Both the position numbers and the translations under genes were made by a program. Below the pieces are notes generated by a model. The model was given only the letters and a program-made list of their open reading frames with translations, did not search any database and was not told the DNA's origin. Below are positions 744 through 56,568 of a stretch of 64,000 bases of DNA, piece after piece. Source of the DNA: Christiangramia sediminis (GTDB lineage Bacteria; Bacteroidota; Bacteroidia; Flavobacteriales; Flavobacteriaceae); assembly GCF_020552705.1 (NCBI RefSeq), contig NZ_JAJBZG010000005.1:496001-560000 (forward strand). Reading direction: 5' to 3'. How positions within the stretch are numbered: the first letter of the stretch is position 1; every line of letters begins with the position of its first letter.

Positions 744-2546
744 TTAATCATTTAACTTAAGAACCGCCATAAATGCTTCCTGCGGGATCTCTACGTTACC
801 TACCTGGCGCATACGTTTTTTACCTTTTTTCTGCTTTTCAAGTAGCTTTCTTTTACGGGAAATATCACCACCATAACATTTTGCGGTAACATCCTTTCTA
901 AGTGCTTTTACGGTTTCACGAGCAATGACCTTTGCTCCAATAGCCGCCTGAATAGGAATATCAAATTGCTGTCTTGGAATTAATTCCTTCAGTTTTTCGC
1001 ACATTTTCTTACCAATATCATAGGCATTATCTACGTGTAATAAAGCTGAAAGTGCATCGACAACATTTCCGTTTAATAAAACATCCACTTTTACCAGTTT
1101 AGACTGTCGCAGACCGATTGGTGTATAATCAAAGGAAGCGTAACCTCTGGAAACGGTCTTTAAGCGATCATAAAAATCGAATACGATCTCTGCTAAAGGC
1201 ATGTCAAAAGTTAATTCTACCCTTTCTGTGGTTAAATAGGTCTGATTGGTGATCTCTCCCCTTTTTTCAATACAAAGACCCATCACATTCCCCACATAAT
1301 CTGCTTTGGTAATGATGGTTGCTTTAATAAAAGGCTCTTCTACCCTATTTAAACTTGAAGGTTCCGGAAGGTCTGATGGGTTATTTACCAGGATCACATC
1401 ATCCGGATTTTTATTGGTATATGCCTGGTAAGATACGTTGGGAACCGTAGTAATTACAGTCATATCGAACTCACGTTCCAGTCTTTCCTGAATGATCTCC
1501 AGGTGCAACATTCCCAGGAATCCACAACGGAAACCAAAACCAAGAGCAGCAGAACTTTCAGGAGTAAAAACCAGTGAAGCATCGTTCAACTGAAGTTTTT
1601 CCATAGAAGATCTTAATTCTTCATAATCTTCAGTATCTACCGGATAGATTCCGGCGAAAACCATAGGTTTTACATCCTCGAAACCTGCTACAGCTTCGGT
1701 GGTAGGATTAACGGCACTCGTAATGGTATCTCCCACTTTTACTTCGCGGGCATCTTTGATCCCGGTGATTAGATAACCAACATCCCCGGTTTTGATCTCT
1801 TTCCGCGGAAATTGTTTTAGGCGAAGAGTTCCAACCTCATCGGCATCATATGTTTTATTGGTAGCTACGAATTTAATTTTTTCCCCTTTTTTAATAGAAC
1901 CGTTAATCACTCTAAAATAGGTTTCAACTCCTCTAAACGGGTTGTAAACAGAGTCGAAGATCAAAGCCCTAAGCGGAGCATCGACTTTCCCGCTTGGAGC
2001 AGGAATACGATTAATGATGGCATCCAGAATTTCTTTTATTCCAAGACCGGTTTTGGCACTTGCCGGAATAACTTCCGAAGGATCGCAACCTAAAAGGTCC
2101 ACGATATCATCGGTTACTTCTTCAGGATTCGCGCTTGGAAGGTCCACTTTATTCAAAACCGGAATGATTTCCAGGTCATTTTCTAAAGCCAGGTAAAGGT
2201 TTGAAATTGTTTGCGCCTGAATACTCTGCGCTGCATCTACCACCAGCAAAGCACCTTCGCAGGCAGCGATAGAACGTGAAACCTCATAAGAGAAATCCAC
2301 GTGACCGGGAGTATCAATTAGATTCAGAACAAATTCCTCACCTTCATGGATATAATCCATTTGAATAGCGTGAGATTTAATAGTGATCCCGCGTTCCCGT
2401 TCCAGATCCATACTGTCCAGCAATTGTTCCTGTTTTTCTCTTTCAGTAACAGTCCCTGTATAGTCCAGTAAACGATCGGCAAGTGTACTTTTCCCGTGAT
2501 CTATATGCGCAATTATGCAAAAGTTTCGAATGTTCTTCATCTTCAA
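744..2546 (-). CDS. lepA: Elongation factor 4 (LepA) GTPase
   Basis: EF4 is a ribosome-associated translational GTPase implicated in back-translocation and in 30S biogenesis. At 600 residues it has the usual length. The P-loop AHIDHGKST is at residues 13-21, switch I RGITI at about 52-56, DTPGH follows near 77, and the NKVD base-recognition motif is near 131. The LepA-specific C-terminal domain includes [20 protein letters not shown] and ends with the basic GKKRMRQVG tail. The start may be the second Met (MKNIRNF), two codons in. A TAtaTTTG -7 element lies about 50 bp upstream on the minus strand. Confidence 0.98.
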
Positions 2547-2592
2547 ATTTTGTATCCTTTCCTCCTGTTTAAATCAGGCGAGTTTAAGAGTA

Positions 2593-2600
2593 CAAATATA
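2593..2600 (-). promoter_or_regulatory. -7 promoter element (TATATTTG) for lepA
   Basis: Minus-strand match to the Bacteroidota -7 consensus TAnnTTTG, 47 bp upstream of the lepA start. No convincing -33 TTG was placed. Confidence 0.55.
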
Positions 2601-2739
2601 ATTGAATTAATAGTCTTAAATAAAATTTCAAGTTTATGTTTGTTTTCTTGTGCAATCGGCTTTAGTTGCAGAAATTTAGATCATATTTTTAAATGACTGA
2701 ATGCCCATATTTACCGCATTTTCAGAATAAATCACCTCA

Positions 2740-3564
2740 ATGGAAAAGAATAGTCCAAACACTGAAAAAGTTTCTAATTACGATCATCTTGAGAAGATGA
2801 GCACATCAGAATTGTTGAATAATATCAATAATGAAGATCAATCGGTTGCCAAAAGTGTTCAGAAAGTGATCCCGGAGATCGAAAAACTGGTAAATGAGAT
2901 CGTTCCAAAAATTGCAGCAGGCGGCCGACTTTTTTATATTGGCGCTGGAACCAGTGGCCGACTTGGAGTTTTAGATGCTTCCGAATGTCCCCCAACTTTC
3001 GGGGTGAGTCCGGGAATAGTCATCGGGCTCATTGCTGGAGGAGATACCGCTTTAAGAAATGCGGTTGAAAATGCTGAAGATAATACCCAACAAGCCTGGA
3101 AAGACCTCCAGGAATATGATATTTCAGAAAAAGATGTTCTGGTTGGTATCGCAGCTTCAGGCACCACTCCGTATGTGATTGGAGGAATAAAGGAGGCAAG
3201 AAATAATGCTATTATCACCGGATGTGTCACCTGTAGTTCAAGTAGTCCGTTAGCAATGGCTTCAGAATATCCCATTGAAGTAATTACCGGTCCTGAATTT
3301 GTAACAGGAAGCACGAGGATGAAAGCAGGAACGGCACAAAAAATGGTGCTGAATATGATATCCACTTCTGTAATGATAAAACTAGGTCGGGTAAAAGGAA
3401 ATAAGATGGTAGATATGCAGTTATCAAATGACAAACTGGTAGGCCGTGGCACCAGAATGATCATGGAAGAACTTAATATTGAAAAAGAAGAAGCTGCAAG
3501 ATTATTGATGCAGCATAAAAGTGTAAGAAAAGTGATAATGGCATATAAAAAGAGCGATAATTAA
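2740..3564 (+). CDS. murQ: N-acetylmuramic acid 6-phosphate etherase
   Basis: MurQ cleaves the lactyl ether of MurNAc-6-phosphate to give GlcNAc-6-phosphate and D-lactate during cell-wall recycling. The SIS-domain signature GAGTSGRLG is at residues 68-76, followed by DASECPPTFG with the conserved catalytic-region glutamate (about residue 82), and PEFVTGSTRMKAGTAQKM further on. The 274 residues are slightly shorter than the roughly 300 of the E. coli enzyme, at the C-terminus. Its stop overlaps the start of the next gene (TAATG), so the two are probably translationally coupled, and both flank an NlpC/P60 hydrolase. Confidence 0.97.
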   Translation: MEKNSPNTEKVSNYDHLEKMSTSELLNNINNEDQSVAKSVQKVIPEIEKLVNEIVPKIAAGGRLFYIGAGTSGRLGVLDASECPPTFGVSPGIVIGLIAGGDTALRNAVENAEDNTQQAWKDLQEYDISEKDVLVGIAASGTTPYVIGGIKEARNNAIITGCVTCSSSSPLAMASEYPIEVITGPEFVTGSTRMKAGTAQKMVLNMISTSVMIKLGRVKGNKMVDMQLSNDKLVGRGTRMIMEELNIEKEEAARLLMQHKSVRKVIMAYKKSDN

Positions 3565-5195
3565 TGGGTAGCAATTTCATCTTTTCAAATTCTCTGAGGT
3601 CCCTTGGATTTATTGTATTGATCCTGCTCATGAATGCGTGTAAATCTACACAGGCGGTAAAAACTGAACCTACCGAACCAAAGGTTGTGGAAAAGGAAAC
3701 CGAAAAGCCAGTGGAAGAAATTCCGGAGATAGAACAACCTGAAGAGACTTCTGAAGAAATTAATTTTATGGAACCTCCCATAGATATTGAGGAATTCAGG
3801 GCTGCATGGATCGCAACCGTGGCGAATATTAACTGGCCAAGCAGAAATGATCTTTCTACCGAAGCTCAAAAAAAGGAAGCGATCGCCATGCTCGATTTTC
3901 TTGAGAAACATAATTTTAATGCCGTGATATTGCAGGTGAGACCCCAGGCTGACGCGCTATATGAAAGTGACATTGAACCCTGGTCTTATTTTCTAACCGG
4001 AAAAAGTGGAAAAGCCCCGCAACCCTATTATGATCCCTTAGAATTCTGGATAGAAGAAGCTCATAACCGCGGAATGGAATTACATGTCTGGTTAAATCCA
4101 TATAGGGCACATCACACTACAGGAAAGGAAATAGGGGAGAAGTCTATTGTAAAAACGCATCCCGGCCTGGTTAGAGAATTGAAAAATGGAATGTGGTGGA
4201 TGGATCCCGGAAGTAATCAAGTTCAGGAGCATTCAGCCAATGTGGTGATGGATATTGTAAAAAGATATGATATAGATGCAGTTCATTTTGACGATTACTT
4301 CTATCCCTATGCCTCTTATAATGGAAAAAAAGACTTTCCAGATGAAAACAGCTGGCAGAAGTATGTAAGTGAAGGCGGTGAACTTTCGCGCGGGGACTGG
4401 AGAAGGAAAAATGTGAACGACTTTATAGAAAGAATCGCAGAAGAAATAAAGGCTGAAAAATCATACGTAAAATTCGGTATAAGTCCGTTTGGAATTTGGA
4501 GGCCTGGATTTCCGAAGGGGATTAGCGGGATGGACCAGTATGAAGAATTATATGCCGATGCCAAATTATGGTTGAACAAAGGCTGGATAGATTATTTTAC
4601 GCCGCAGCTGTACTGGCCAACAAATCAGATGAAACAAAGTTTCCCGGTACTTCTTGGATGGTGGGAGTCTGAAAATGTAGTAGGACGGCACGTATGGCCG
4701 GGAATTAATCTTGGACTGGAAGAAAAAGAAGAACATAAAGGAGAGATTGCTTCTCAAATCCTGATCTCCAGAGGAATTTTAAGAGACAATCCGGGTACAG
4801 TACACTGGAATATTGGCCCGTTAATGAAAAATGACAGCCTGGCTAAATCCTTGCTTAATGGGCCTTATCATCGAAATGCCCTTGTGCCTGCCAGTCCGTG
4901 GTTAGACGAAGAAGTACCTGCTGTACCAGATTTTAAACTTAAAAATTCAGCGGATGATATTCACTTAAGCTGGATTCAGAATGAATTAGAAGAAACCTTT
5001 CGCTGCGTGGTATATTACAGATACGAGAATTCAGGTTGGGAATTTAAAATATTGAATCTAAATTCAAAAAACATTGAAATCCCCAAGGTAAATACAGACA
5101 AAAATAAGCTTGAAAAAGTGGGGATAACTGCGGTGGATAGAACTGGAAACCAGAGTAGTTTTAAAGAACTTGAAATTGAGAAATTATTACCTTGA
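3564..5195 (+). CDS. Glycoside-hydrolase-10-like (GHL10/DUF187) lipoprotein
   Basis: A 543-residue predicted lipoprotein: the signal segment ends with the lipobox LMNAC, with Cys26 as the acylated residue. A Pro/Glu-rich linker (about residues 30-70) precedes the GHL10 domain, recognised by EFRAAWIATVANINWPS, LQVRPQADALY, LHVWLNPYRAHH and AVHFDDYFYPY, all typical of the (beta/alpha)8 DUF187 family. A C-terminal fibronectin-like module follows from about residue 450. The family acts on glycans, and some members have been linked to peptidoglycan glycans. Its overlap with murQ makes a role in wall-sugar salvage at the cell surface plausible, but this is inference. Confidence 0.85.
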   Translation: MGSNFIFSNSLRSLGFIVLILLMNACKSTQAVKTEPTEPKVVEKETEKPVEEIPEIEQPEETSEEINFMEPPIDIEEFRAAWIATVANINWPSRNDLSTEAQKKEAIAMLDFLEKHNFNAVILQVRPQADALYESDIEPWSYFLTGKSGKAPQPYYDPLEFWIEEAHNRGMELHVWLNPYRAHHTTGKEIGEKSIVKTHPGLVRELKNGMWWMDPGSNQVQEHSANVVMDIVKRYDIDAVHFDDYFYPYASYNGKKDFPDENSWQKYVSEGGELSRGDWRRKNVNDFIERIAEEIKAEKSYVKFGISPFGIWRPGFPKGISGMDQYEELYADAKLWLNKGWIDYFTPQLYWPTNQMKQSFPVLLGWWESENVVGRHVWPGINLGLEEKEEHKGEIASQILISRGILRDNPGTVHWNIGPLMKNDSLAKSLLNGPYHRNALVPASPWLDEEVPAVPDFKLKNSADDIHLSWIQNELEETFRCVVYYRYENSGWEFKILNLNSKNIEIPKVNTDKNKLEKVGITAVDRTGNQSSFKELEIEKLLP

Positions 5196-5210
5196 TCAAA
5201 ATTATTAGAT

Positions 5211-6428
5211 ATGAACTTCTATAAATATATACTGGCTTTTTTGATGTTCGCGGCAATAGCCTGTAATGAACAGAGAAGCGGGAATAATCTACAGGTCGCT
5301 GAGGATCATATTGAAGAGGTGCGTTCAAAATTTGCACCCGACAAGAGAATAGCTTTATTCAATATAGATTCTGAAATTCGGGAAGGGAAACTTATAGTAA
5401 GGGGAGAAACCAATATGGCACACGCCAAGGATTCCTTGTTTTCTAAACTGGATTCTGCCGAAATTGAATATATAGATAGCATTCAGGTATTACCAGCTTC
5501 GAATCTTAACGATAGTATTTATGGAATAATTGACGTGTCTGTAGCCAATTTAAGAGGGGAAGCGAAACATTCTGCTGAGTTGGTAACGCAGGCTACGCTG
5601 GGGACTCCTGTTGATATATGGAAAAGAACTGATGAATGGTATTATATCCAAACCCCGGATGGTTATTTATCCTGGGTAGACCACGGTGGAATTACCACCA
5701 TGAATAAGTATGAATTTGAGAAGTGGAAATCTTCTGAAAAGATCATTTTTCAAAAGCCTTTTGGTCAATCATTCAAAGACGCTTCATTAGACTCAAAACC
5801 GGTTACAGATCTTGTGGCCGGGGCTATTTTGGAAATGGAGGCTGAAAAAGGAAATTTTTATAAAGTCAGGTATCCTGATGGCCGGGCTGCATTTATCTCT
5901 AAAGATGATTCAGCCGTATATTCACAATGGCTTTCAGCGCTGAAGGCTTCCGAAGAAAACCTAATGGGAACAGCCGAAAAATTAATGGGAGTTCCTTATC
6001 TATGGGGAGGGACTTCAGCAAAAGGAGTGGACTGTAGTGGATTTACAAAAACCATTTTCTTTATGAACGGAATGGTGATCCCCAGGGATGCTTCTCAGCA
6101 GATAAGAGAAGGGAAGCTGATAGATTCAACAGGAAAATTTGAAAAACTGGCGGTAGGAGATCTTTTATTCTTTGGAAGACCTGCGACCGACTCGACCTCT
6201 GAACGTGTTGTTCACGTTGGAATGTGGCTGGGAAATAATGAATTTATACATTCTTCAGGAGACGTGCATATAAGCAGTATGGACTCAACTGCTGAGAATT
6301 TCGATGATTTTAATAAGAACAGGTATTTGAGGACAAAAAGATATTTGGATCAAAAAAGTGAAGGTTTAACCTATTTAAAATCTGAAAATATCTATATGAC
6401 TGAAGAAGCGGATACTCTGTATAATTAG
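5211..6428 (+). CDS. SH3 plus NlpC/P60 peptidoglycan peptidase, lipoprotein
   Basis: A 405-residue lipoprotein (lipobox AIAC, Cys18) with bacterial SH3-like segments at about 105-165 and 195-235 and a C40-family NlpC/P60 domain at about 248-385. The catalytic Cys is Cys275 in GVDCSGFTK, the His is His335 in VVHVGMWL and a third polar residue is His347 in EFIHSSG. Such enzymes cut gamma-D-Glu-diamino acid bonds in wall peptides, as in YkfC-like recycling enzymes. It follows the GHL10 gene by 15 bp, completing a sugar-plus-peptide recycling set, and its stop overlaps the convergent nagB-like gene by 4 bp. Confidence 0.93.
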   Translation: MNFYKYILAFLMFAAIACNEQRSGNNLQVAEDHIEEVRSKFAPDKRIALFNIDSEIREGKLIVRGETNMAHAKDSLFSKLDSAEIEYIDSIQVLPASNLNDSIYGIIDVSVANLRGEAKHSAELVTQATLGTPVDIWKRTDEWYYIQTPDGYLSWVDHGGITTMNKYEFEKWKSSEKIIFQKPFGQSFKDASLDSKPVTDLVAGAILEMEAEKGNFYKVRYPDGRAAFISKDDSAVYSQWLSALKASEENLMGTAEKLMGVPYLWGGTSAKGVDCSGFTKTIFFMNGMVIPRDASQQIREGKLIDSTGKFEKLAVGDLLFFGRPATDSTSERVVHVGMWLGNNEFIHSSGDVHISSMDSTAENFDDFNKNRYLRTKRYLDQKSEGLTYLKSENIYMTEEADTLYN

Positions 6429-53403: not shown

Positions 53404-54012
53404 ATGTCTTTTGAATTACCAAAATTAAAATATGCCTTTGATGCATTGGAGCCACATATCGATGCAAAAACAATGGAGATTCATCATGGTAAACACCATG
53501 CTGGTTATACTAAAAAATTAAATGACGCCATTGAAGGAACTGATATGGACGGAAAAAATATCGAGAATATTTTGAAAAATCTTGATATGTCTAATAAAGC
53601 GGTTCGTAATAATGGTGGTGGATTTTATAACCACAGTCTTTTCTGGGAAATTATGTCTCCAGACGGAGGTGGAAAGCCTGAGGGTGAATTAGCCAGTGCA
53701 ATTGATGCGGCTTATGGATCTTTTGAAGCTTTTAAAGAAGAGTTCTCTAAAGCTGCAGCAGGTCAGTTTGGTTCTGGATGGGCCTGGCTTTGTGTACATA
53801 GCGGAGGTAAAGTAGAAGTATGCTCTACACCAAATCAGGATAACCCAATTATGCCTGAGGTAGGATGTGGAGGAACTCCAATCCTTGGTCTTGATGTATG
53901 GGAGCATGCTTATTATTTGAATTATCAGAATAAGCGTCCTGAATATATTGATGCATTTTTTAATGTGATAGACTGGAAAGAAGTTTCAAGTCGTTATGCA
54001 AAGGCGAAATAA
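53404..54012 (+). CDS. sodB: Fe/Mn superoxide dismutase
   Basis: A 202-residue dismutase of the Fe/Mn family that turns superoxide into peroxide and oxygen. Metal ligands are His27 in [12 protein letters not shown], a His in [13 protein letters not shown], and the Asp and His of [19 protein letters not shown]. No signal peptide, so it is cytoplasmic. The metal cannot be fixed from sequence with certainty. A strong terminator follows. Confidence 0.96.
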
Positions 54013-54034
54013 TAAAGACTCTTAATAGATAGAG

Positions 54035-54060
54035 AAAGGCCGCATTTTGCGGCCTTTTTT
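54035..54060 (+). terminator. Intrinsic terminator after sodB
   Basis: Stem AAAGGCCGCA / TGCGGCCTTT with loop TTT, then T-rich. Confidence 0.93.
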
Positions 54061-54084
54061 TATGTGCTTACCTGAGTTTATTCC

Positions 54085-54234
54085 ATAAAAAAAGGCGGAA
54101 TAAATTCCACCTTTCTTTGCCCCAAATCTACCATGAACTTAACCTACTTATGCTATGGTATAGTAAATATAAATCGAATTATCTTCTGAACTTTATTTTT
54201 TAGACGAACTACCTAAATATTAGTTAAATAACTG
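54085..54234 (-). ncRNA. Tandem unit 1: putative sibling small RNA
   Basis: First of three homologous units between sodB and the purF-like gene. Read on the minus strand it starts at ACTAATATTTAGGTAGTT, crosses a variable AT-rich part, a near-invariant block (CCATAGCATAAGTAGG through GGTAGATTTGGGGC) and ends in a hairpin GGTGGAAT / ATTCCGCC with a T7 tract. The T-G pair is a wobble only in the minus-strand RNA (C-A mismatch on plus). A -7-like TAGATTTG sits inside the block, so the 5' end is uncertain. No family recognised. Confidence 0.55.
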
Positions 54235-54304
54235 TTTTTCAGTTTTTTGAGCTTTTTACCGATTAATTCTACACTTAAAAATTTTAATGATCTTCACTTA
54301 ATCC

Positions 54305-54453
54305 AATAAAAAAAGGCGGAATTAAAATTCCACCTTTTTTTGCCCCAAATCTACCATGAACTTAACCTACTTATGCTATGGTCTAATAAAGATAAAAAGA
54401 AACTATCTATGATTTTAATTTTTTAGACAAACTACCTGAATAATAGTTAAAAT
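54305..54453 (-). ncRNA. Tandem unit 2: putative sibling small RNA
   Basis: Second unit, about 221 bp from the first by hairpin position. The block of about 40 bp from GCCCCAAATCTACC to TATGCTATGG is identical to unit 1. The terminator hairpin has a longer loop (GGTGGAAT, TTTA, ATTCCGCC) and T7 on the minus strand. Upstream it keeps CTATTATTCAGGTAGTTTGTC. The spacer 54240-54300 to unit 1 holds nothing else that I can identify. Confidence 0.55.
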
Positions 54454-54516
54454 GTTGAAAATCAAAAAATTGTAAAATATAAGAGGGTTTTTTACCCAGG
54501 ATTGAGGGGAGTAGAA

Positions 54517-54664
54517 ATAAAAAAAGGCGGAATAAATCCCACCTTTTTTTGCCCCAAATCTACCATGAACTTAACCTACTTATGTTATGGCAATACTAAA
54601 GTATATAGAAATCTACTATGCACAAAGAATAATAGACAAAGTGCAGTTATATTAGTTAAAAGGT
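54517..54664 (-). ncRNA. Tandem unit 3: putative sibling small RNA
   Basis: Third unit, about 211 bp from the second and immediately downstream of the purF-like stop. It differs by one base in the block (TATGTTATGG) and by a second wobble in the hairpin (GGTGGGAT / ATTCCGCC), again pairable only in the minus-strand RNA. It could also act as the purF-like gene terminator. Confidence 0.55.
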
Positions 54665-54669
54665 AATTT

Positions 54670-56568
54670 TTAATAGGCTCGGTCTTTATTCCCTTCGAAA
54701 AAGTTCATAAATGCTCTGTTTACTACTCTATTACCTCCGGGTGTGGGATAATTACCAGTAAAATACCAATCTCCCAGGTTTTTGGGACAGGCTTTATGAA
54801 GGTTATCTACTGTTTGATAGATCACCTTGACCTCTGCATTTACGTCTTCGTTACTAAGTAGCTCTGAGATTTTATCAGAAATTTCTTCATCCGTAAACGG
54901 ATCGTAGATCTCCTTAACAAAGTTCTGAACTTCTTTATCGTCAAGGTCTACCTGCACTTTGCATTTATCGTACACCTTTTCTACAATATCATATTGATTA
55001 TTATCTTTTAAAAGCTCTAGAGCTGCTCTAAATGCTACCAGATCTTCCAGTCTGGCCATATCTATTCCATAACAATCAGGATACCTAATTTGAGGAGCAG
55101 AGGAAACAACCACGATCTTTTTAGGCTTTAACCTATCCATCATTTTAATGATACTCTTTTTAAGAGTTGTACCTCTAACGATACTATCATCTATGATCAC
55201 TAAATTATCCTCAGGCTTGACAACCCCGTAAGTAACATCATAAACGTGAGCCACCAAATCATCACGACTGCTGTCTTCAGTAATAAATGTTCTAAGTTTT
55301 ACATCCTTGATAGCGATCTTTTCTGTCCTTAGACGATGTGAAAGTATTTCCTGAAGCCTTGCATCAGTAAGAGTTTCTTTTTCCTCAAGAATCGCTTCAT
55401 TCTTTTGTTTGTTCAGTTCATCCTGTGCAGCTTCTACCATTCCGTAGAAAGAAGTTTCAGCCGTATTGGGAATGAAAGAGAAAACTGTTTTCAGGGTATC
55501 GTGATCTATAGATTTTAGCACATCTGGCATCAGTAATCGCCCAAGCATTTTCCGCTCCTGATAAATTTCAGCATCACTTCCTCGAGAAAAATAGATACGT
55601 TCAAAAGAACATGCTTTTCTTTCTAATGGTTCGAGAATCTCTGTGATAGAAACATCTCCATTCTTTTTAGTGATAATTGCATTTCCTGGAGGTAATTCAT
55701 GTACATCATCAAAATCTACATTAAATACGGTTTGAATTACCGGCCTTTCTGAAGCCACCACCACCACTTCATCATCTTTATAGTAATAGGCGGGTCTTAT
55801 TCCGGCTGGATCACGTAATACAAAGGAATCACCGTGACCAATTAATCCGGCCATGGCATAACCACCATCCCAGTCTTTCGAAGATTTTCTAAGGATCTTG
55901 GCAACATTCAGTTTTTCAGCTATTACCGGGGAGGCTTCAACCTTTGAATACCCTTGCTTTTTTAGTTTTTTGTATAATTTACGAACTTCATCATCCAGAA
56001 AATGACCAATCTTTTCCATGACGGTAACAGTATCGGCTCTTTCTTTCGGATGCTGACCAAGCTCCACAAGATTATTGAAAAGCTTATTCACATTCGTCAT
56101 ATTAAAATTCCCGGCCACGATAAGGTTACGGTGCATCCAGTTATTTTGTCTCAGGAAAGGATGAACGCTTTCTATGCTGTTCTTTCCAAAAGTTCCATAT
56201 CGCACGTGCCCCAGAAAAACCTCTCCCAGATAAGGAATATGTCTTTTTTGAAGCTCTGTATCTTCTGCATACTCAGGATTGGCCTGAATCTCCTCATTAA
56301 TCCTTTCGTTGATCTGTGCAAAAATATCCTGAATTGGTTGTGCAGCATTGGATCTAACCCGACTGATATATCTTTCTCCCGGAATAGTATTGAGTTTGAT
56401 ACTTGCAAAACCAGCACCATCCTGACCACGGTTATGTTGCTTTTCCATCATCAGGTACATTTTATTTACACCATAAAATGCTGTCCCGTATTTTTTCTTA
56501 TAGTAATCAAGAGGTTTTAAAAGCCTTATATGTGCAATTCCGCATTCGTGTTTTAAAGCATCACTCAT
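54670..56568 (-). CDS. purF: Amidophosphoribosyltransferase, long form
   Basis: A 632-residue Ntn-type amidotransferase fused to a phosphoribosyltransferase. Cys9 (KHECGIAHI) would be the nucleophile after removal of an eight-residue propeptide; glutaminase motifs RGQDGAGFASI and HVRYGTFG follow. The PRPP loop is VIIDDSIVRGTTLKKSI. It is clearly longer than the roughly 500-residue E. coli PurF, with extra segments around residues 170-220 and 360-430. PurF makes phosphoribosylamine, the first purine step; the long form is a known flavobacterial variant. Whether it is the main PurF cannot be told here. Confidence 0.88.
   Translation of the reverse strand: MSDALKHECGIAHIRLLKPLDYYKKKYGTAFYGVNKMYLMMEKQHNRGQDGAGFASIKLNTIPGERYISRVRSNAAQPIQDIFAQINERINEEIQANPEYAEDTELQKRHIPYLGEVFLGHVRYGTFGKNSIESVHPFLRQNNWMHRNLIVAGNFNMTNVNKLFNNLVELGQHPKERADTVTVMEKIGHFLDDEVRKLYKKLKKQGYSKVEASPVIAEKLNVAKILRKSSKDWDGGYAMAGLIGHGDSFVLRDPAGIRPAYYYKDDEVVVVASERPVIQTVFNVDFDDVHELPPGNAIITKKNGDVSITEILEPLERKACSFERIYFSRGSDAEIYQERKMLGRLLMPDVLKSIDHDTLKTVFSFIPNTAETSFYGMVEAAQDELNKQKNEAILEEKETLTDARLQEILSHRLRTEKIAIKDVKLRTFITEDSSRDDLVAHVYDVTYGVVKPEDNLVIIDDSIVRGTTLKKSIIKMMDRLKPKKIVVVSSAPQIRYPDCYGIDMARLEDLVAFRAALELLKDNNQYDIVEKVYDKCKVQVDLDDKEVQNFVKEIYDPFTDEEISDKISELLSNEDVNAEVKVIYQTVDNLHKACPKNLGDWYFTGNYPTPGGNRVVNRAFMNFFEGNKDRAY

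Follow-up and report, generated by a model that had tools for sequence, protein, structure and literature searches.

A family of tandem sibling small RNAs between purF and sodB in Flavobacteriaceae, with a LytTR response regulator as candidate activator

Three repeated units lie between purF and sodB in the window, by which we mean the whole stretch of Christiangramia sediminis DNA analysed here, 64,000 nucleotides long, and they raise the question of what such units encode, what switches them on and on what their products act. The first-pass annotation had picked out the repetition from the sequence alone, and it is real: three 127-nt direct repeats start at 54102, 54325 and 54534 (spacings 223 and 209) and share an exact core 37-mer, for which the 3.25-Mb genome has no other match even when 3 mismatches are allowed. 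Judged from the sequence, the reading of the units as small RNA (sRNA) genes on the minus strand, each with a predicted RNA of about 74 nt, appears to be right. The features are as follows, the 5' ends of the three sRNAs being placed from the position of the -7 box.

54670..56568, minus strand: purF, the conserved upstream neighbour, on the same strand as the units
54632..54660, minus strand: 20-bp direct repeat upstream of copy 1, proposed LytTR site, which differs from the pattern at 2 positions and lies 9 bp from the stop codon of purF
54596..54603, minus strand: -7 box TACTTTAG of copy 1, from column conservation over 191 units
54519..54592, minus strand: sRNA copy 1, nearest purF, about 74 nt; 5' hairpin, linker and intrinsic terminator (hairpin 54519-54550); E 1.6e-23
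54423..54451, minus strand: 20-bp direct repeat upstream of copy 2, proposed LytTR site, 0 mismatches
54387..54394, minus strand: -7 box TATCTTTA of copy 2, from column conservation over 191 units
54308..54383, minus strand: sRNA copy 2, about 76 nt; E 1.0e-22
54200..54228, minus strand: 20-bp direct repeat upstream of copy 3, proposed LytTR site, 0 mismatches
54164..54171, minus strand: -7 box TATATTTA of copy 3, from column conservation over 191 units
54087..54160, minus strand: sRNA copy 3, nearest sodB, about 74 nt; E 8.5e-24
53404..54012, plus strand: sodB, the conserved convergent neighbour, with a terminator-like hairpin at 54029-54063

The RNA of each unit consists of a 5' hairpin with a nearly invariant loop, the conserved linker AGAUUUGGGGC and a covarying intrinsic terminator. 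More specifically, the 5' hairpin has 8 bp and one bulged base, ACCAU-AAC-[AUAAGUAGGUUAA]-GUU-(C/U)-AUGGU, and is followed by AGAUUUGGGGCAAA and then by the U-rich terminator. When 45 diverse units out of 133 distinct transcripts were aligned, 10 of the 11 terminator pairs changed on both sides. Covariation of the whole structure reached 0.276, above all 500 shuffles and every slid control (at most 0.115), with the tool's own warning on the shuffle test that related sequences can beat shuffles without structure. Five of the 8 pairs of the 5' helix never vary, and covariation thus says little about this helix. Read as minus-strand RNA, 806 of the 832 base-pair cells in the 45 members are standard (96.9%) with 69 G-U pairs, as compared with 739 of 832 (88.8%) and 2 G-U pairs in the plus reading. 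The wobble asymmetry first seen in the three hairpins of the window therefore extends over the family in favor of the minus strand, the strand on which these three hairpins also end in T7. The three minus-strand RNAs of the window fold with z scores of -3.6, -3.7 and -4.2 against shuffles, while the plus strand of one unit reaches -3.2, so that the strand is not decided by folding alone. The initial claim of minus-strand RNAs ending in intrinsic terminators is upheld by family-wide conservation, by the covarying terminator and by the G-U asymmetry; it had been staked on hairpin substitutions that preserve pairing, and the terminator substitutions of the homologues do keep pairing in the minus-strand RNA. 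The units show the attributes of an intrinsically terminated bacterial sRNA, namely a promoter box, a short RNA, a hairpin with a U tract and covariation of the structure.

Column profiles were taken over 191 units, from a set of 192 drawn from the listed exact-match loci and the window. Near the RNA, the promoter side is marked most strongly by a TA..TTT box, which covers -22 to -15, and by CCAT, almost invariant, at -9: T and A stand at -22/-21 in 86-87% of the units, and CCAT at -9 to -6 in 94-100%. The strict form TAnnTTT begins at -22 in 68 of 191 units and at -23 to -25 in 32. TTG stands at the -33 distance in 30 units, a slight excess over shifted windows, where 0-16 of the tested units have it, and a weak -33 element may exist in some units. 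A much shorter transcript of about 40 nt, which the annotation had left open, is not indicated, since the -7-like TAGATTTG within the block belongs to the conserved linker, and a conserved -7 box stands before the core at -22 to -15.

It is very improbable that the conserved block is instead a short coding gene (AUG GUA GAU UUG GGG CAA ...). An AUG does lie 7 nt after a Shine-Dalgarno-like AAGUAGGU, and the first codons are common to most units of the exact-match set, as expected where the DNA itself is invariant. However, a one-base difference in the linker (GGTAGATTT versus GGTAAGATTT) shifts the frame between clades, the open frame may be as short as 8 codons or meet no stop in the part read, and the terminator follows directly. 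We dropped this reading because of the frame shift between linker types.

The units are not peculiar to this genome. In public contigs of other genomes, at least 115 stretches contain an exact 31-mer core, which excludes chance, and the records among the listed matches belong to flavobacterial genera or to unplaced Bacteroidetes/Bacteroidia bins, plus one bin labelled Algicola. Among the loci compared, Christiangramia provides the nearest named relatives of the window, with sodB at 85.6% to L099. Of 397 Flavobacteriaceae genomes searched with a covariance model, which unlike the exact scan needs no invariant core, 327 had a match at E<=1e-3. For 16 of these (counted by eye) the best E lies above 1e-8 and the match may be noise, so that 311 remain at E<=1e-8. 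Outside the family, a class-level search of 295 genomes returned nothing better than E 1.8e-6, and an order-level search of 196 genomes placed 26 of 27 matches at 1e-6 within Flavobacteriaceae, the remaining one having an E of 8.6e-7. We take the outside matches as noise, as all 14 inspected (L155-L168) are without the loop core. Four of these weak matches (L155, L163, L164 and L166) keep GGGCAAAA before the terminator, and a very remote relationship is possible for them. Among 119 units from genomes chosen by model or by hand (L197-L236 and L282-L308), the 11-nt loop core AGTAGGTTAAG is intact in 106, and the linker occurs as GATTTGGGGC, GGGGA, GGGAC/T and rarer types. No sRNA copies were found on viral contigs by exact pattern or in phages by blastn, and the plasmid search returned one 29-base match, which covers the terminator part.

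The covariance models of Rfam 15, run over the whole window, gave only two tRNAs at or above the gathering score. With the thresholds relaxed, 58 matches between 53900 and 54800 (to STnc40, HrrF, FopS and others) have E values of 0.015-10, near chance; they look like terminator resemblance and were rejected. In 8 relatives, Rfam matched only Flavo-1 (RF01705), likewise a small RNA of Flavobacteria, at another place than the units. In one genome Flavo-1 lies at L217:1366-1443 (67 bits), about 2 kb from the array, whose units are at 3280-3528, and it is rejected as the identity of the family. We did not find a paper on the family in the open-access literature, where supplementary tables could list the transcript. 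From its conservation, it is almost certain that the units form a real sRNA family without an Rfam entry.

The arrays keep their place. Of the 153 loci with units, 136 have purF upstream in the same orientation and 123 have sodB downstream and convergent; both are found in 112 and neither in six, some loci being cut short at their edges. Arrays hold one to seven copies across the family, with 2-5 in each of 24 same-genus genomes (counted by eye), and in the exact-match set the 76 gaps between copies have a median of 227 bp, with 70 falling within 150-300 bp. The first copy's core follows purF by about 80-170 nt on the same strand in most loci, as it would if the units were serial terminators or 3'-UTR fragments of purF devoid of promoters of their own. 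We consider that explanation improbable, in that the -7 box is common to the units and the direct repeats are kept in most of them, arrays reach seven copies, and copies lie away from purF in L005, L060, L207, L209 and L223. The loci found off purF, or showing no purF or sodB in the part read, are these five together with L011, L028 and L214, the units of L011 and L028 sitting at the locus edge. Single extra copies away from purF, at L005:4552 (in the same isolate as L081), L060:7449 and L223:2894, imply that copies can move. We also observed a recurring GGGGTGGCGAG element just after the terminator in L016, L019, L027, L035, L101 and L104, in records of Aequorivita, Ulvibacter and some unclassified Flavobacteriaceae.

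The siblings within an array differ in an ordered manner. In 58 two-copy loci, the bulge base is C and then T in 39 and C in both copies in 18, one locus having an unusual first copy; T followed by C occurs in none, and one three-copy locus begins with T. The linker subtypes GGGGC, GGGGA and GGGAC also vary between siblings. These patterns indicate that the siblings are not freely homogenised, and because they differ by position, dosage is not the whole story of copy number. In one clade (L198-L202, L235 and L236), the last sibling has the linker GGGACGAAAA or GGGATGAAAA and carries an upstream stretch, AATACCAGTAATTTAG or AATACCAGTATTTTAG, in place of the direct repeat; this last sibling is probably a separately controlled subtype.

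What, then, would switch the units on? A 20-bp direct repeat is present upstream in most units. It covers -84 to -65 and -64 to -45, its 14-column profiles correlate at r 0.79 with a 20-bp shift, and a third, weaker copy gives a correlation of 0.52 near -101. LytTR regulators are described as binding two repeats of 9-11 nt with a spacer of 11-13 nt, and YpdB of E. coli as binding GGCATTTCAT (PMC4847170). The repeats of the units agree with this two-repeat rule, their 20-bp period being its lower limit. For the YpdB 10-mer GGCATTTCAT, which was picked after the motif had been seen, matches of at least 8/10 occur in 27% of the 191 units versus 2.2% of shuffles, mostly at -64/-65 and -84, and matches of at least 9/10 in 8.9% versus 0.05%. 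When the repeat pattern was sought in the 24 same-genus genomes with 0-1 mismatch, the matches listed were the sRNA arrays and one other site (G266:C27). We propose that the 20-bp repeats resemble the sites of LytTR response regulators, and it is likely, from the sequence comparisons that follow, that the sRNAs are activated by such a regulator.

The genome of the window has eight LytTR matches, one of which is a regulator with receiver and LytTR domains encoded between priA and rpsF. A search of 31 mostly small genomes narrows the choice. Seven sRNA-bearing genomes among them have exactly one LytTR match (G137, G249, G092, G046, G178, G167 and G327), and this single gene adjoins priA in all seven and rpsF in six, the seventh locus showing no rpsF. 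Four other sRNA-bearing genomes (G187, G358, G139 and G065) are without any LytTR match. A profile of 15 orthologues of the regulator was searched in 80 chosen, related genomes, where it separated matches of at least 234 bits from others of at most 221. The regulator was present in 34 of 42 sRNA-positive genomes (E<=1e-8) versus 7 of 38 that were negative or weak (Fisher P 2.7e-8, relatedness ignored). Six genomes (G001, G011, G018, G032, G056 and G160) have more than one match of at least 234 bits, with two or three proteins each. More than one such match was observed in 6 of the 7 genomes with the deviant last sibling.

The position of the regulator gene is itself conserved: 47 of 56 regulator loci show both a convergent priA and a divergent rpsF, 53 show at least one, and three show neither (G276, G199 and the extra copy L330 of G056). 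The phospho-acceptor aspartate is kept in 42 of the 56 regulators, and all 14 losses fall in genomes of at most 2.2 Mb, giving a pseudo-receiver; the aspartate-less loci are L261-L264, L266, L269-L271, L279, L342 and L345-L348. No kinase gene was recognised beside the regulator in the neighbourhood loci inspected.

The repeats also follow the regulator. The repeat score, taken as the best over all copies in a genome, has a median of 13.2 in 45 genomes with the regulator; in the 8 genomes that lack it, the median is 3.3 (P = 1.8e-4 by a one-sided rank test, relatedness and copy number uncorrected, regulator-bearing genomes having more copies). For 13 of the regulator-bearing genomes in this test the regulator was assigned by synteny rather than by the profile search, and two more genomes had no upstream sequence. 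Counted per copy, 65 of 106 copies exceed the 99th percentile of shuffles in genomes with the regulator as compared with 1 of 12 in genomes without it. From these associations we infer activation by the priA-rpsF regulator, which would be the most likely activator.

It is rather unlikely that the sRNAs are real and trans-acting while their repeats are bound by some activator other than this regulator. Seven genomes carry the regulator without a clear sRNA (G010, G095, G112, G151, G199, G333 and G367), four have both regulator and sRNA with repeat scores that do not reach the 95th percentile of shuffles (G053, G087, G166 and G167), six more with both score between the 95th and the 99th, and G188 reaches a repeat score of 10.7 with the regulator absent. 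Moreover, the genomes lacking the regulator are mostly streamlined; they have lost many regulators together and may have lost other factors. Contrarily, the regulator is the sole LytTR protein matched in the seven small sRNA-bearing genomes, and within genus g140, G327 has regulator and repeats, whereas G139 (a draft, 86% complete) has neither.

Diverged units near LytTR genes argue in the same direction, against another activator. In a LytTR profile scan of ten non-standard loci, matches appeared in L207 and L214 only. L207 (G096; 3019-3919 and 4609-5349) holds about five strongly diverged units, some of them weak, with a LytTR-domain gene about 0.7 kb off on the same strand; the match of this gene is borderline, at 23.1 bits against a cut-off of 22.6. 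The array carries a different repeated motif, CCACTTATTAC, at six sites by eye, and G096 carries two ordinary copies at its purF as well (L208). In L214 (G015; 3370-3448, 1998-3335 and 681-1403), a diverged unit with one CCACTTATTAC site stands directly before a histidine-kinase gene, which is followed by a LytTR response-regulator gene about 2 kb from the unit. In a third locus, L209 (2644-3427) of G139, the place between priA and rpsF that the regulator usually takes is occupied by two sRNA copies; the flanking genes were confirmed by tblastn. L207, L214 and L209 all come from draft genomes, in which misassembly is possible in single cases.

On what the RNAs act was approached through 11- and 12-base complements of the loop and the linker in 39 genomes, and no conserved sense target was found among these long complements. 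In the 24 same-genus genomes, the loop complement has 88 matches, 77 of which are sRNA copies, against 36 for the control; outside the sRNA genes it is thus rarer than the control (11 versus 36). The linker complement has 104 matches against 6 for the control. Of these, 78 lie in the arrays (by eye), and the other 26 include two more sRNA copies (L370 and L374), which leaves 24 outside sRNA genes versus 6 for the control. Thirteen of these 24 fall on the antisense strand where one conserved gene begins, and three share a coding region within a long ORF. A sense complement 75 nt before a 277-aa ORF, found in L351 and L363 (2 of the 24 genomes), is a weak candidate. Consistent pairing was likewise not found with the 5' regions of AddA, SodB and PurF (60 loci each) or of RpsF and RpsR (16 each), the mean z lying between -0.6 (SodB) and 0.

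The conserved gene with the antisense complements encodes a propeller-type sensor/regulator of 1286 aa in the genome of the window, whose C-terminal part looks by eye like a receiver and an AraC-type HTH. Around its TTG start, 13 of the 24 same-genus genomes have AGATTTGGGGCA, which reads in the sense of the sRNA linker. The mRNA of this gene thus has the same sequence as the sRNA and does not qualify as a pairing target. At the site in the window's own genome (L375:4650-4690), the TTG start lies within AGATTTGGGGCAT, the same 12 bases as in the sRNA linker, and 12 orthologous sites were seen (L353, L356-L359, L361, L362, L365, L368, L369, L371 and L372). The occurrence of AGATTTGGGGCAT at this start may be due to chance or may reflect a shared binding site.

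Since loop and linker are so conserved and their sequence is shared with this gene start, the main rival to pairing is that the sRNAs are real and bind a protein as a decoy (an RRM-type RNA-binding protein, a ribosomal protein or RNA polymerase), the conservation reflecting protein contacts. Conservation reaches far beyond the usual seed, as the intact loop cores illustrate, and the searches gave no conserved complementary target. The start of the sensor gene, with AGATTTGGGGCA in the sense of the linker, would fit a decoy, though chance together with coding conservation could equally account for that start. Linker subtypes that differ between siblings, however, fit diversified pairing at least as well, and we hold the decoy explanation to be unlikely.

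Our main reading, to which we give a probability of about 0.6, is a LytTR-activated, trans-acting family of sibling sRNAs. Each unit would have its own promoter, in which a -7 box of the TAnnTTT type lies about 4-5 nt before the hairpin and no -33 element is recognised, and its own intrinsic terminator, transcription running leftwards on the minus strand. Upstream of the box, a LytTR response regulator would bind as activator to two or sometimes three direct repeats of 20-bp period, the best candidate being the regulator encoded between priA and rpsF. The RNA is then assumed to act in trans, its loop AGUAGGUUAAG and G-rich linker (AUUUGGG) pairing with the translation-initiation regions of several mRNAs, which would be the simplest mechanism by analogy with FopS and csRNAs. 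Siblings would add dosage and, in some clades, separate inputs.

A broader view seems doubtful to us. It would see a near-universal module of the Flavobacteriaceae, in which the LytTR regulator by the rpsF-rpsR-rplI operon is dedicated to sRNA arrays that adjust translation broadly, through contacts with the ribosome or RNA-binding proteins as much as through single targets, and which has been copied, as at least two diverged loci with CCACTTATTAC repeats near other LytTR genes might suggest. To our knowledge, post-transcriptional control in flavobacteria has been little described. An RNA of about 74 nt whose core is nearly invariant in most of the family's genomes searched, a testable candidate regulator and the usual place between purF and sodB make cultured flavobacteria usable for direct tests. 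In addition, sibling arrays with position-specific paralogues and clade-specific promoters offer a natural experiment on the retention of multi-copy sRNAs in bacteria.

Regulation of an sRNA by a LytTR protein has precedents in AgrA and RNAIII, FasA and FasX, and VirR and VR-RNA, and we know of no relationship between RNAIII, FasX or VR-RNA and the flavobacterial family. LytTR-activated promoters, as described for YpdB and yhjX of E. coli (PMC4847170) and for AgrA at P2/P3 of S. aureus (PMC4227749), have direct repeats upstream, as here; the YpdB motif GGCATTTCAT matches part of the units, and the promoter-proximal repeats of AgrA are given as centred near -60 (PMC4227749). Among flavobacterial RNAs, Rfp18 of Flavobacterium psychrophilum is described as a conserved sRNA with its own transcription unit, but a third stem-loop pairs with its targets (PMC9723704); the units here have two hairpins and do not fit that description. 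The family may nevertheless be listed under an Rfp number (Rfp1-89). The FopS sRNAs of Bacteroides are reported as multicopy RNAs of about 65-70 nt with their own promoters that repress translation near start codons (PMC11697453), and they resemble the present family as a multicopy family of small sRNAs of Bacteroidota. They differ in having 14 copies, for which the main text of PMC11697453 does not use the word tandem, and identity with FopS (RF04319) is rejected, as the three units score 20.6, 20.2 and 18.3 bits against a gathering score of 56 (E 1.6-4.6). The Cia-dependent csRNAs of streptococci are portrayed as several similar sRNAs under one response regulator and a direct repeat, with a tandem pair in S. 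sanguinis and additive action on shared targets (PMC8186281). By description, they share with the present units the principle of similar siblings each driven by one response regulator via a direct repeat, but the CiaR site is TTTAAG-N5-TTTAAG and not a 20-bp LytTR-like repeat, and the phylum is a different one. The best model is an sRNA family that is comparable to the csRNAs or to FopS but separate from both.
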